From assembly GCA_003153435.1 (NCBI GenBank), contig PLYR01000076.1, positions 1-33,906 of the forward strand: a stretch of 33,906 bases of DNA, read 5' to 3'. Positions 15,693 to 21,034 of the stretch are shown piece by piece. The notes below the pieces were generated by a model. It was not told the origin of the DNA. It made no database searches and worked only from the letters and a program-made list of their open reading frames with translations. The DNA is from Bacteroidota bacterium. GTDB taxonomy: Bacteria > Bacteroidota > Bacteroidia > Palsa-965. The position numbers and the translations under genes were made by a program. Position 1 is the first letter of the stretch; the number at the start of each line of letters is the position of its first letter.

Positions 15693-17156
15693 ATGAATAT
15701 ACTTCAGCAAATGATAGGTTTTATGAACAAGGAAGAGCTTCGGCACTTCAAATTGTACGCGAAACGGACCCAAGCCTCCTTGGAGCGAAAAGATTTGCAG
15801 TTGTTCGATTATATCCGGCATTCCTTCCCAGATTACGAGGAGGACAAAATTCAGAAAAAGCTATATGGAACGGGAGATAAGAACACCCTCTATCGGCTTA
15901 AAAATCGACTCCTAGATGATGTAAGCAGGAGCCTGGCGCTGCAATATTTTGAAACAACAGACTACAACCTTTTACTGAATCACCTTGCCCTGGCCCGCCT
16001 TTTTCATGCCCGGAACCAAAGTGAAATAGCGATCCATTTTCTTACGCGAGCTGAAAAAAAGGCGTTTGAACTCGAAATCTTCGAACTGCTTGATTTAATC
16101 TATAATGAATTGATCCGTCTTTCTCAGGAAACACTCCAGATAAATCCTCAGGTGTATATTCCAAAGAGAAAATCGAACAGACTTAAAATGAATCTCTTGC
16201 AAGAAATTGACGATATCCTTGCAGAAGTGGTTTATAAAATAAAGACCTCTCAGAATTTCTCCGGTAATGATTATGTTAGTCTGGTTGAGCTGGAAAAAAA
16301 GGTCAAAGCCTTTACGCGGGATAAAGCCTTCAGGAATAGCACGCAATTACGCTTCAAAGTGTATCAAAGTGTCAGCCGAATAATGCTTCAGAAGCAGGAT
16401 TTTCGTTCTCTTGAAAAATATCTGCGAAAGACATTTATTGCGTTTGAAAAGGAAAAGCTCTTCAATAAGAGCAATCATGAGGTAAAACTTCAGATGCTGA
16501 CTTATCTTATCAATTCATTGTTTAAAAACGGAAAGACAACTCTTTCTCTTGAATACACGGAGAGGTTGAAAGGGGCGATGAAGGAATTTAATGCTATGAT
16601 GCACGATAAATACCTTTTTTATTATTACAATTCGCTTGTGATTAATTATTCACAAACTGATTTGAAGAAGGCCATTGAAATTCTTCATGAAGCGCGGGAA
16701 AACCCTGTTATTCGTAAGCTTCCATCTTATATAGTTTTTATTTACATCAATCTGGCAACACTCAATTTTGATTTGGGAGATTTTAAACAGGCTATCCGCA
16801 ATCTGGTTAAACTTTGCCTAGAACCCGGTTTTAAGAATCTGGATGTTGGCTTGAGGTTTAAAGTTCATGTTGCAGAACTGATCATTCGGTATGAGCTTGG
16901 TGATTTCGATTTTGTAGATCATAAGTTGGAACAATTGAAAAAGGATTTCAATACAGAGCTGAAGAGTCCGGAGTATGTCCGGCAACAAAAAATAATGGAG
17001 ATAATCCACGGAATGATTCTAAGCCACTCCTTGAAAGATGATAAAGAGCTAATGGTTCTTATAAATGCTCTTCTGTATGGGAAGAATTCGAAAGAACATG
17101 CTCAAAATGATCTTTTAAACTATAATGAGTGGCTCAAAACAAAGTTGACTAAATAA
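15693..17156 (+). CDS. unknown all-helical cytoplasmic protein, possibly TPR-like
   Basis: I do not recognise the family. The 487-residue product has no signal peptide or membrane segment, is rich in Lys, Leu and Phe, and looks almost wholly alpha-helical. Stretches such as LALARLFHARNQSEIAIHFL, the leucine-rich LINSLFKNGKTTLSLEYTER and YINLATLNFDLGDFKQAIRN have the helix-turn-helix spacing and small-residue pattern of tetratricopeptide repeats. A scaffold or protein-protein interaction role is therefore plausible but not shown. Its 3' end overlaps the 3' end of the convergent asd gene by 8 bp. The start follows a perfect -7 box. Confidence 0.8.
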   Translation: MNILQQMIGFMNKEELRHFKLYAKRTQASLERKDLQLFDYIRHSFPDYEEDKIQKKLYGTGDKNTLYRLKNRLLDDVSRSLALQYFETTDYNLLLNHLALARLFHARNQSEIAIHFLTRAEKKAFELEIFELLDLIYNELIRLSQETLQINPQVYIPKRKSNRLKMNLLQEIDDILAEVVYKIKTSQNFSGNDYVSLVELEKKVKAFTRDKAFRNSTQLRFKVYQSVSRIMLQKQDFRSLEKYLRKTFIAFEKEKLFNKSNHEVKLQMLTYLINSLFKNGKTTLSLEYTERLKGAMKEFNAMMHDKYLFYYYNSLVINYSQTDLKKAIEILHEARENPVIRKLPSYIVFIYINLATLNFDLGDFKQAIRNLVKLCLEPGFKNLDVGLRFKVHVAELIIRYELGDFDFVDHKLEQLKKDFNTELKSPEYVRQQKIMEIIHGMILSHSLKDDKELMVLINALLYGKNSKEHAQNDLLNYNEWLKTKLTK

Positions 17157-18138
17157 GGTTCTTTCCAAGCAGATACTCCGCAATTTGAATGGCGTTTGTA
17201 GCAGCGCCTTTCCTTAGGTTGTCAGAAACAATCCACATCTGTAGGGTCTTTGGTTGAGTCTCATCTCTACGTAGGCGACCAACAAATACTTCGTCTTTAT
17301 TATGCGCGTCTTTTGGCATAGGATAATGAAGTTTCTTGATGTCATCCACGAGGATGACTCCCGGGGCTGAAGCCAGGGTCTTGCGCACCTCCTCCAGTTC
17401 GAATTCATGCTCAAACTCAACATTCACAGATTCACTATGTCCCCCCATAACTGGTATTCTAACCGCTGTAGCAGTAACACGGATGTTTTTATCCCCCATT
17501 ATTTTCACGGTCTCATGAACCATTTTCATTTCTTCCTTGGTATAACCATTATCGGTAAAAACATCGATCTGGGGGATGACGTTGAGATCTATCGGGTAGG
17601 CATAAGCCATCTCCCCGGATGTTCCATTCCGTTCGTTCATGAGCTGGGTCACCGCCTTAACCCCTGTACCAGTTACTGACTGATATGTTGATACGACTAC
17701 TCTTTTGACTTTGTATTTCAGATGTAAAGGATTCAGGGCTATAACCATCTGAATGGTTGAACAATTTGGATTAGCGATGATCTTGTCATCTTTTCCAAGT
17801 TCTTTCGCATTGATTTCAGGCACGATAAGTTTTCTGCCGGGGTCCATTCTCCAAGCCGAGGAATTATCGATCACTGTTATTCCTGCTTCAGCAAACTTAG
17901 GAGCCCATTCCAGAGAGGTTCCGCCTCCTGCTGAGAAGAGGGCTACTGCAGGTTTCATGCTAATAGCTGTTTGCAAGGAAACAACTTTGTATTTCTTCCC
18001 TTTAAATGAAATGTCCTTCCCTACCGATTTCTCAGAGGCTACTGGAATAAACTCCGTAACCGGGAAATTTCGTTCTTCTAGGACCTGAATCATTTTTGTA
18101 CCTACCAGTCCTGTAGCGCCCACAACTGCAACTTTCAT
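17149..18138 (-). CDS. asd: aspartate-semialdehyde dehydrogenase
   Basis: This enzyme reduces L-aspartyl-4-phosphate to L-aspartate 4-semialdehyde with NADPH. It is the branch-point step towards lysine and diaminopimelate, threonine, methionine and isoleucine. The 329-residue protein starts with the nucleotide-binding motif VAVVGATGLVGTKM. The catalytic cysteine is Cys126 in ANPNCSTIQMV. The catalytic-histidine segment is RIPVMGGHSESVNVEF. The length is normal. The 5' region is unusual: a short leader ORF and a terminator-like hairpin precede the gene on the same strand (18170-18289), suggesting attenuation. The 3' end overlaps the convergent gene by 8 bp, leaving no room for a terminator between the two stop codons. 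Confidence 0.97.
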   Translation of the reverse strand: MKVAVVGATGLVGTKMIQVLEERNFPVTEFIPVASEKSVGKDISFKGKKYKVVSLQTAISMKPAVALFSAGGGTSLEWAPKFAEAGITVIDNSSAWRMDPGRKLIVPEINAKELGKDDKIIANPNCSTIQMVIALNPLHLKYKVKRVVVSTYQSVTGTGVKAVTQLMNERNGTSGEMAYAYPIDLNVIPQIDVFTDNGYTKEEMKMVHETVKIMGDKNIRVTATAVRIPVMGGHSESVNVEFEHEFELEEVRKTLASAPGVILVDDIKKLHYPMPKDAHNKDEVFVGRLRRDETQPKTLQMWIVSDNLRKGAATNAIQIAEYLLGKNLI

Positions 18139-18169: not shown

Positions 18170-18195
18170 CAAAAAGCCTTTCCGGTGGAAAGGCT
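18170..18195 (-). terminator. intrinsic terminator in the asd leader
   Basis: On the minus strand AGCCTTTCC (18195-18187), loop ACC and GGAAAGGCT (18183-18175) form a perfect 9-bp hairpin followed by T residues (TTTTG). It lies upstream of the asd start (18138) and downstream of a short ORF, with no full gene on that strand to terminate. A role in attenuation is therefore the simplest reading. Confidence 0.7.
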
Positions 18196-18237
18196 CTGCT
18201 TTTATTTCAGGATGTATAAAACATCAGAGGCCATTCC
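18175..18237 (-). promoter_or_regulatory. candidate antiterminator/terminator switch before asd
   Basis: On the minus strand GGAATGGCCTCTG (18237-18225) can pair with CAGAGCCTTTCC (18198-18187). This gives 11 base pairs, one U-U mismatch and one bulged C. The second strand is also the 5' arm of the terminator at 18175-18195, so the two structures exclude each other. The first strand lies over the last codons of the leader ORF. A ribosome finishing the ORF would mask it and allow termination, while a ribosome stalled earlier would leave it free to form the antiterminator. Confidence 0.5.
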
Positions 18238-18289
18238 GCTTGGATGAAGGTTTCTTATACTTCAGACATGTGATGGTCATCCTGTTCAT
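18224..18289 (-). CDS. candidate leader peptide of asd (21 aa)
   Basis: The ORF encodes MNRMTITCLKYKKP and then SSKRNGL; an internal ATG at 18280 would give 18 residues. It holds two Thr codons around an Ile (TIT) and four Lys codons, three of them close together. Those amino acids are end products of the pathway that asd feeds. The stop codon is 29 nt before the terminator hairpin. GATCTTTG at 18301-18294 on the minus strand is one mismatch from TAnnTTTG and would start transcription almost at the first ATG. It is too short for coding statistics, so the call rests on its position and the RNA structures. Confidence 0.4.
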   Translation of the reverse strand: MNRMTITCLKYKKPSSKRNGL

Positions 18290-18383
18290 GAAGCAAAGAT
18301 CATACTTTTTGGAATACGGCTGCATTTTTTCTAAAAGAATCTTTCAGAGCTTTCTGATTAGAAGCAGAATGTCTTATTCTGCC

Positions 18384-18436: not shown

Positions 18437-21034
18437 GTGAAACACCTTTTAATAATCCTTTCGATTATAAGCTTCCAGATGGAAGGGCAAGTCATAACCG
18501 ATGATTTTTCCGATGGAGATTTCACACACAATCCGGTCTGGGCAGGAGACAGTTCTCATTTTATTGTAAACGGGTCGGCTGAGCTTCAACTGCAGGATAC
18601 CGGGCCTAACCAAAGTTATTTATCAACAGCAAGCCCCGGAACTTTACTGAGAAACAACGAATGGAGGTTTTGGGCGCGGGAAAATTTTTCCCCTTCTGCC
18701 AATAATTATGGTCGGGTATATCTTGTATCAGACAGTCAGAATCTAAAGGATAGCCTAAACGGATATTACCTTCAATTTGGTGAAGCGGGAAATAACGATG
18801 CGGTGGAGTTATTCAGGCAAAATGGGCTGACTGTTTTTTCCGTTTGTCGGGGAAAAGACGGAGAAATTGCATATCCTTTCCAGATTGGAGTAAAAGTAAC
18901 CCGTGATTCCTTGGGGGAGTGGAGCCTGCTCATAGACCCTCAAGGCGGGGTTGACTATATATTTGAAAATAAGGGAGTTGACACTCTTCAAACAACTACA
19001 CTTTTCTTCGGTGTATTAGCTACATATACCAAAACTGACGATACGAAATTCTACTGGACAGATTTTTATGCAGGACCTATATACATTAACCATACTCTTC
19101 CTGCAATTCTTGAATCGCACACGATATCCGCAACAAAACTGGATGTGCAGTTTAACGAGAGACTGGACTCTGTTCAATCTGTTTTAACATTTAATTATAT
19201 TGTAAATAAAGGAATTGGAAGCCCGACCCAAGTATTGCAGGACTCTGTTAGTGCAGGGCTTATACATCTTTCATTTGCAAATCAATTTTTAGTTGATACA
19301 GGGTATACAATAAAAGTAAAAGATTTGAAGAACGAAAACGGAGACCTCATGAAACCGGATTCAACCTTGTTCTGGCGTTTTGTACCCCGATCTTTCGACG
19401 TTGTAATTAATGAGGTGATGGCCAATCCGAAGCCACCCCAGAATCTTCCTCCTTATGAATATATCGAGCTCTATAACAGGACGAAAATCCCAATACCGCT
19501 GGATAACTGGAAGATTTGTATTGGACTGAAAGAACATTTAATAGGTTCGGTTACAATACTCCCTGATAGCTTTGTTGTACTTTGTTCAAATACAGCAAGT
19601 CTTACTTTTAACTCTTCCCTTCCTGTTGTCGGTGTTGCAGGTTTTCCTGCCCTTAACAATTCCGGAGCCGAACTGACTTTGAAAACAGACTCTGGACGAG
19701 TGATGTCTTGCATAACGTATTCCGATACCTGGTATGGGAATTCAAACAAAAAAAATGGAGGTTGGTCACTAGAACAAATTGACCCTGATAATCCATGTGC
19801 TGGTTCTGAGAATTGGAGAGCATCCGTAAACCCCGATGGTGGAAGTCCAGGCAAACGAAATTCAATCAAAGGCTCAAACCCGGATCATTCTTTTCCAGAG
19901 GTACTCCATGTTGTAGTGATTTCTCCGGATACACTTTGTGTTATTTTCTCAAAACCACTTGATAGTGCTTCCATGATTAATCCGGCCCTCTATGCCTCAA
20001 TTCCTCCGATACAGCTTAAATCTATCCAGGCAGTTGGCAATGATTATCAACGAATCTTTCTTTTTCTCTCTTTCCCGCTTCAGGCAGGAATTATATATGA
20101 ATTGAAAATGAATTCCGGCATAAAAGACTGTGTTGGTAATCCTTTGCTGTCAAATGAAAGTATCCGCTTTGCTTCGCCACAAAACCCTGTTTATCAAGAC
20201 ATTGTCATCAATGAGATGCTTTCTGACCCCAGGAGTGGAGGGGTGAAATATGTAGAGCTTTACAATCGATCCTTGAAGGTAATTGACCTAAAATCATTAA
20301 ATCTGGCCTCAGGAGATTCAATCATCGGAGTCATTTCAGATATAAAGGAAATAACATCAATCGGATACTTGCTCTTTCCTGGTGATTATGTTGTATTGAG
20401 TACAGATGGAGCAATAGTTAAAAACCAATATTTCTCGTTGGACCCAAAGGCGTTCACGGATTTGCCCACCATGCCAAAAATGGACATTGGTGGAGGACTG
20501 ATAGCATTATCTACTACTTCTGGATTGATCATTGATCAAGTAATTTATTCTTCCTCTTGGCAGTTTCCGCTTCTTAACACAACGAAAGGTGTATCACTCG
20601 AAAGAATTGATTTTGAGAAGCCGTCCCAGGATCCAAATAACTGGCATTCTGCGGCTGAAACAGTGGGTTTTGGAACACCCGGGTACAGGAACTCTGAGTA
20701 CATGGGTAAGTCATCTGTCTCGGAAGTCAGTCTGGGGTACGAACTATTTTCTCCAGATGAAGACGGATACCACGACGTGCTTCCTATCAACTACTGGTTT
20801 GACGCTCCTGGAAGCCTTGCTATCGTCAAGATCTATGATTCCCGGGGTAGACTTATCAGGAATTTGGAGAGGAATATTCTGTTAGGTTCTTCAGGAAGTA
20901 TTAATTGGGATGGATTAGGGGACCGTCAGGAAAAAGCTCCAATCGGGAGATATATCATCTATTTTCAAGTCTTTCATGTAAATGGGAAAGAGCAATCCTA
21001 CAAGTTAGTCTGCACACTGGCTTCTAAACTTTGA
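18437..21034 (+). CDS. large secreted protein with two lamin-tail domains and FlgD-like C-terminus
   Basis: This is an 865-residue exported protein. The GTG start gives a signal peptide (KHLLIILSIISFQMEG, then QVITDD). Domains, in order, are as follows. A jelly-roll-like region lies at about 20-210. An SbsA-like Ig domain follows at about 215-315. Lamin-tail domain 1 (about 318-440) is marked by VVINEVMANP and YEYIELYNRT. A second Ig-like domain covers about 485-580. Lamin-tail domain 2 (about 590-750) is marked by IVINEMLSDP and VKYVELYNRS. A C-terminal region with SPDEDGYHDVLPI, VKIYDSRGRLIRNL and INWDGLGDRQEKAPIGRYII resembles FlgD-like or gliding-motility C-terminal modules and could serve as a T9SS sorting region. 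It is probably on the cell surface. The function is unknown. Confidence 0.87.
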   Translation: MKHLLIILSIISFQMEGQVITDDFSDGDFTHNPVWAGDSSHFIVNGSAELQLQDTGPNQSYLSTASPGTLLRNNEWRFWARENFSPSANNYGRVYLVSDSQNLKDSLNGYYLQFGEAGNNDAVELFRQNGLTVFSVCRGKDGEIAYPFQIGVKVTRDSLGEWSLLIDPQGGVDYIFENKGVDTLQTTTLFFGVLATYTKTDDTKFYWTDFYAGPIYINHTLPAILESHTISATKLDVQFNERLDSVQSVLTFNYIVNKGIGSPTQVLQDSVSAGLIHLSFANQFLVDTGYTIKVKDLKNENGDLMKPDSTLFWRFVPRSFDVVINEVMANPKPPQNLPPYEYIELYNRTKIPIPLDNWKICIGLKEHLIGSVTILPDSFVVLCSNTASLTFNSSLPVVGVAGFPALNNSGAELTLKTDSGRVMSCITYSDTWYGNSNKKNGGWSLEQIDPDNPCAGSENWRASVNPDGGSPGKRNSIKGSNPDHSFPEVLHVVVISPDTLCVIFSKPLDSASMINPALYASIPPIQLKSIQAVGNDYQRIFLFLSFPLQAGIIYELKMNSGIKDCVGNPLLSNESIRFASPQNPVYQDIVINEMLSDPRSGGVKYVELYNRSLKVIDLKSLNLASGDSIIGVISDIKEITSIGYLLFPGDYVVLSTDGAIVKNQYFSLDPKAFTDLPTMPKMDIGGGLIALSTTSGLIIDQVIYSSSWQFPLLNTTKGVSLERIDFEKPSQDPNNWHSAAETVGFGTPGYRNSEYMGKSSVSEVSLGYELFSPDEDGYHDVLPINYWFDAPGSLAIVKIYDSRGRLIRNLERNILLGSSGSINWDGLGDRQEKAPIGRYIIYFQVFHVNGKEQSYKLVCTLASKL

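Follow-up and report, generated by a model that had tools for sequence, protein, structure and literature searches.

Feedback of lysine at the RNA level is known mostly as the L box, the lysine riboswitch, which controls lysine genes in other bacteria and binds free lysine without translation. The asd RNA motif of Streptococcus lies upstream of asd, and the Bacteroidota, to which the locus studied here belongs, are largely without Shine-Dalgarno sequences. The classical ribosome-mediated attenuators, namely those of the trp, his, thr, leu, ilv and phe operons, have been modelled previously (PMC1183508). Naville and Gautheret knew of no leader-peptide attenuation outside Proteobacteria and Actinobacteria before their own case in Firmicutes (PMC2965389). 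In Flavobacteriaceae, structured 5' elements are reported at hisG and pheA, and Flavobacterium psychrophilum gives strong clues to leader-peptide attenuation ahead of amino-acid operons (PMC9723704).

Below we report the analysis of a stretch of 33,906 nucleotides from a Bacteroidota bacterium (assembly GCA_003153435.1, contig PLYR01000076.1), referred to as the window. On its minus strand, the region ahead of asd is very probably a ribosome-mediated transcription attenuator which senses charged tRNA-Lys. A preliminary description of the sequence had already proposed an attenuator at this place, and the idea proves essentially correct with two corrections, which concern the signal (lysine) and the protector helix.

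Layout of the asd leader

The gene asd is stand-alone in the window (17149-18138, minus strand, ATG at 18138) and encodes aspartate-semialdehyde dehydrogenase, as identified by the profile TIGR01296 asd_B with 427 bits against a cut-off of 324. It is flanked by two long ORFs on the plus strand (15693-17156 and 18437-21034), and the leader is located between the asd start and the divergent ORF starting at 18437. Read along the minus strand, the leader begins with a promoter -7 box of the TAnnTTTG type, GATCTTTG (18301-18294, 5 of 6 consensus matches), followed by an ORF of 21 codons, MNRMTITCLKYKKPSSKRNGL (18289-18224), with its ATG at 18289 and its TGA at 18226-18224. The ORF has four Lys codons, and the aligned leaders single out a regulatory cluster Lys-Tyr-Lys-Lys (18262-18251; Lys codons 10, 12 and 13). 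An intrinsic terminator hairpin formed by regions 3 and 4 (18197-18173) has 11 pairs with a perfect 9-pair core (18195-18175) and a loop of 3 nt, runs into the T-rich tail TTTTGTTT (18174-18167, from reading of the sequence), and ends 36 nt ahead of the asd ATG. Region 2 (18237-18225), the antiterminator strand, overlaps the last leader codons and the stop and pairs with region 3 (18198-18187) in 11 pairs at -16 kcal/mol; as this pairing uses the 5' arm of the terminator, the two structures are mutually exclusive. The ORF, the antiterminator and the terminator were thus placed correctly in the preliminary description, as was the near -7 box. In addition, there is a third helix which had been missed there, termed helix A, whose 5' arm GUAUAAGA (18260-18253) lies inside the Lys codons and whose 3' arm UUUUAUAC (18221-18214) lies 3' of the leader stop, with region 2 enclosed between them. 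In the window this helix is short and AU-rich.

Among 20,000 dinucleotide shuffles of the leader region, a terminator of any kind arises in just 2, and none yields a terminator together with an ORF of 12-30 codons ending 0-50 nt before it, showing that base composition does not explain the layout.

The position of the promoter box tells where the transcript would begin. Of the 30 leaders, 28 have a TAnnTTTG box with at least 5 of 6 matches that ends 4-10 nt ahead of the leader ATG; among 742 control ATGs the share is 6.9%. Since the -7 box occupies positions -12 to -5 relative to the transcript start (PMC9723704), the transcript is predicted from this spacing to start 0-6 nt before the leader ATG, and the leader ORF would be almost leaderless. 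The box of the window is without the first T of the consensus, and no -33 element stands out clearly. For ilvBNC of C. glutamicum, a leader peptide is reported to be synthesised without a ribosome binding site (Morbach et al. 2000, as cited in PMC10272879).

Conservation, covariation and gene specificity

Conservation of the ORF and of the stems in relatives had been set in advance as the test of the attenuator idea, and was found at 30 loci from several families and then in about 90 further copies. The asd upstream regions of 59 genomes and 80 named contigs were sampled, and 30 of them share the layout of a 14-22-codon ORF, a terminator and a complementary segment at the leader stop. Besides the window, the carriers come from its genus and family, from two more families and from many genomes of Chitinophagaceae type, including Flavihumibacter, Niastella, Limnovirga, Filimonas, Sediminibacterium and Parafilimonas. 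The element was not seen ahead of asd in the fetched loci of Pedobacter, Mucilaginibacter, Sphingobacterium, Flavobacterium, Dyadobacter, Hymenobacter and Algoriphagus. In the window's family, two asd upstream regions (L015 and L021) have no detected element although close relatives carry one, which would be loss or replacement; the asd match of L021 holds one in-frame stop. In another locus (L173, 1501-1620, G390) the leader is read in another frame than in its relatives, apparently through a shift of one base (MKMICKIKNTTRKVSIA), and would be a decaying or re-framed copy.

Model searches show to which genes the element belongs. With a covariance model (R1) built from 11 Chitinophagaceae-type leaders, the window excluded, the top match in the window's own genome is the window leader at 48.5 bits and the next matches are at background, two of them being a His leader (hisG) and a Cys leader (adenylylsulfate kinase gene); no Lys leader ahead of other genes of this genome is above background. 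In the class-wide search of 395 genomes, all matches above about 55 bits are at asd or dapA, the weaker ones including His leaders and plain terminators, and a second copy was found ahead of dapA (L165). In 149 genomes of the family to which the L165 genome belongs, taken as Chitinophagaceae because it contains the Limnovirga and Filimonas genomes, the element occurs in 86 genomes with 92 matches, while about 40% of the genomes have none detected by the model. Of these matches 91 were read, and 85 lie before asd (five assigned by eye, because the script had taken a start further upstream or a first residue that is a variant), 6 before dapA and none before any other gene. The dapA copies (L165 of G379, L232, L234, L236, L237 and L239) come from four Chitinophagaceae genera, and dapA identity was checked for one of them, L165, by a TIGR00674 match. 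A pattern search with TTTG-ATG-AARAAACC gave matches at chance level only.

All three helices covary. A covariance model was used because MAFFT with RNAalifold on all leaders, owing to indels, recovered the terminator only. For the helices of the termination state, the 29 aligned leaders have 81 double-change cells against 24.6 in shuffles, and a repeat on 100 sequences, mostly new, has 241 against 68.5 (0 of 500 shuffles matching the score in both), in alignments (A6 and A7) which are fitted to the model structure and with shuffle tests which relatedness inflates. Sliding the register in the 29 leaders lowers pairing from 89% to at most 58%. In the terminator 96.6-97.3% of cells are paired; in helix A all 12 pairs are changed on both sides among 29 sequences, and 0 of 500 shuffles reach the observed covariation. 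The covariation of the antiterminator is modest: its double-change cells number 11 where shuffles give 4.5, and 18 where they give 7.1 (0 of 500 each); pairing is 90% in register and falls to at most 72% when slid. At one locus (L072) regions 2, 3 and 4 are altered together, giving a CCCC-type terminator with a matching region 2.

As the alignments lean to the model structure, an alignment-free test was added, in which a leader's own arms are compared with arms swapped between species. The own arms pair better in helix A, the antiterminator and the terminator (p = 5e-5 each), and this holds for all three helices within the 21 Chitinophagaceae-type leaders. In the window's group (n = 9) the own arms are again better in helix A (p = 0.03) and in the terminator, and the difference is not significant for the antiterminator (p = 0.56), whose sequence is near-invariant there. 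The protector of the preliminary description (18284-18281 with 18228-18225, and 18276-18273 with 18234-18231) can be drawn, but the relatives do not keep it; what they keep is helix A (18260-18253 with 18221-18214).

Several leaders of other kinds were met on the way. The window's own genome has on contig C51 (L149), ahead of hisG, a His leader (MNKNLTLNHHHHLLKTVG, then a stop) with a segment matching the terminator 5' arm, and most of the relatives read have comparable His-rich leaders in front of hisG (L147, L148, L150-L152, L154, L155, L175 and L203). On contig C22 of the same genome (L159), a Cys-rich leader (MKNNLLPVLSHSSDTYKCCMGCCF, then a stop) and a terminator precede an adenylylsulfate kinase-like gene (partial TIGR00455 match), a candidate cysteine attenuator for sulfate assimilation. 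Elsewhere, a Thr/Ile-rich leader (TIIITIIITT) with a terminator lies ahead of an aspartokinase-type gene (L125, 1489-1619, G050) and scores 36.5 bits with the Rfam Thr_leader, under the cut-off of 55. In addition, a short ORF ending in MMCCMMCI with a terminator, about 350 nt before an aldo/keto-reductase-like ORF (L183, 1501-1623, G199), is possibly a Met/Cys leader.

Proposed mechanism and the amino acid sensed

The sequence hallmarks of a leader-peptide attenuator are present together, i.e. a Lys-codon ORF, an intrinsic terminator, an exclusive antiterminator, the geometry of stall and stop, and a pathway gene downstream (asd, dapA). We propose that the transcript starts at or near the leader ATG, so that a ribosome would load as soon as the RNA emerges. 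When lysine is ample, the ribosome would pass the Lys codons, reach the stop and mask region 2 (18237-18225); region 3 would then pair with region 4, and transcription would stop before asd. When lysine is short, the ribosome would stall on the KYKK codons (18262-18251) and keep helix A open, leaving region 2 free about 13 nt downstream, so that regions 2 and 3 could pair and the polymerase could read into asd. On an untranslated leader, region 2 could be held by helix A together with a small nested hairpin, which would favour termination.

The spacing fits this scheme, which is the classical one of PMC1183508. In all 30 leaders, with ORFs of 14-22 codons, region 2 begins 7-14 nt past the Lys pair, and relative to the stop it lies between -17 and +2 nt. 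Region 2 would hence stay accessible while a Lys codon occupies the A site of the ribosome, and would be hidden once the ribosome has reached the stop. In a folding model with a masked ribosome, the mean pairing of regions 2 and 3 is 0.78 at the stall against 0.04 at the stop, the latter value being largely by construction; for the window the values are 0.88 and 0, the zero coming largely from masking. For untranslated RNA of the window the antiterminator is predicted at 0.87, about equal to the stalled state, and the termination-favouring untranslated state is weakly supported there; as helix A is short and AU-rich in the window, control without translation may be leaky at this locus.

As for the signal, the preliminary description had named stalling at Thr or Lys codons, of which the Lys part stands. 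Lys makes up 26% of the leader codons and is missing from none of 115 leaders. Of the last two positions of the aligned core, -2 is Lys in 28 of 30 leaders and -1 in 26, with both AAA and AAG in use. The core peptide of Chitinophagaceae is KHTKRTKK, that of the window's family KxKxxKKP or a similar sequence. The asd step is common to the lysine and threonine branches, and dapA is the first step of the lysine branch. Because Lys is never absent, Thr is dispensable and the element also sits at dapA, the sensed signal is likely lysine rather than threonine.

An attenuator of the same build sensing threonine, or threonine and lysine together, is therefore improbable. It would agree with the service of asd to both branches, with Thr being 12% of the leader codons, with the HT and xT within the common core KHTKRTKK, with the start MNRMTIT of the window leader, and with the Thr/Ile-rich leader at the thrA-like gene of another Bacteroidia genome (L125). 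However, the Thr-Ile-Thr stretch, present in the window as had been pointed out, is peculiar to it and not kept in its relatives; Thr is missing from 11 of the 115 leaders; and ACA, the Thr codon of the core, is part of helix A, where pairing can account for it. The element moreover stands ahead of dapA, where 2 of 6 leaders are Thr-free. By eye, no Thr leader was recognised ahead of thrA in the window's own genome.

It is still less probable that the region is a constitutive terminator or a structured leader with a chance ORF, acting without translation, for example as a riboswitch. Helices A and B with the terminator are indeed the minimum-energy structure in most homologues, whereas the Lys codons at -2 and -1 are mostly unpaired and yet conserved through both synonymous codons, and the ORF and its distance from stop to region 2 are kept in 30 of 30 leaders. 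The alignments show no invariant pocket-like core, and no Rfam family reaches its threshold among the asd and dapA leader homologues. In the window the best Rfam match is Phe_leader with 21.5 bits against a cut-off of 55, Thr_leader, His_leader and Trp_leader being also below, and the lysine riboswitch RF00168 gives no match up to E = 5. Finally, hardly any credence is due to the idea that the short ORF upstream of asd raises asd translation by reinitiation instead of controlling termination, because 85 nt, including the terminator, separate its stop from the asd ATG, while reinitiation in Bacteroidetes peaks at 11-14 bp (PMC4833913).

Comparison with known systems

Taken over all genomes, the ribosome-mediated lysine attenuator probably represents a lysine-specific class across much of Bacteroidia (Chitinophagaceae and several other families), which stands in place of the L box, uses a near-leaderless ORF, and is located at asd with a second copy at dapA in some genera. 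In the open literature that was searched, no paper on a lysine leader-peptide attenuator turned up; the survey of Lopatovskaya et al. (2010, doi 10.1134/S0026893310010164) may overlap and include some of these leaders. The mechanism is known, while lysine as signal, asd and dapA as targets and the near-leaderless ORF look new. If true, this would be a lysine attenuator that works through the ribosome, and in a phylum for which there have so far been mainly hints of leader-peptide attenuation (PMC9723704). With a leader ORF that starts at, or right beside, the predicted 5' end of the transcript, the element would suit as a test system for transcription-translation coupling in bacteria largely lacking Shine-Dalgarno sequences; and as the window's own genome also has His and Cys leaders, the approach could map the set of amino-acid attenuators in Bacteroidota.

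Like the L box, the element would exert lysine feedback on lysine genes via RNA; the L box differs in that it needs no translation, and it has no Rfam match here. The asd RNA motif of Streptococcus is also upstream of asd, without an Rfam match to that motif here. The hisG leaders in Bacteroidia are alike in having a leader ORF, a stop at region 2 and a terminator 5' arm matching region 2, and differ in combining His codons with hisG instead of Lys codons with asd or dapA. With the classical attenuators the element shares the short ORF rich in codons for the end product, the alternative 2:3 and 3:4 hairpins and the stop positioned to mask region 2. It differs from them in the likely lysine signal, in its asd and dapA targets, in the leader ATG at or near the predicted transcript start, and in regulatory codons which pair with a segment past region 2.
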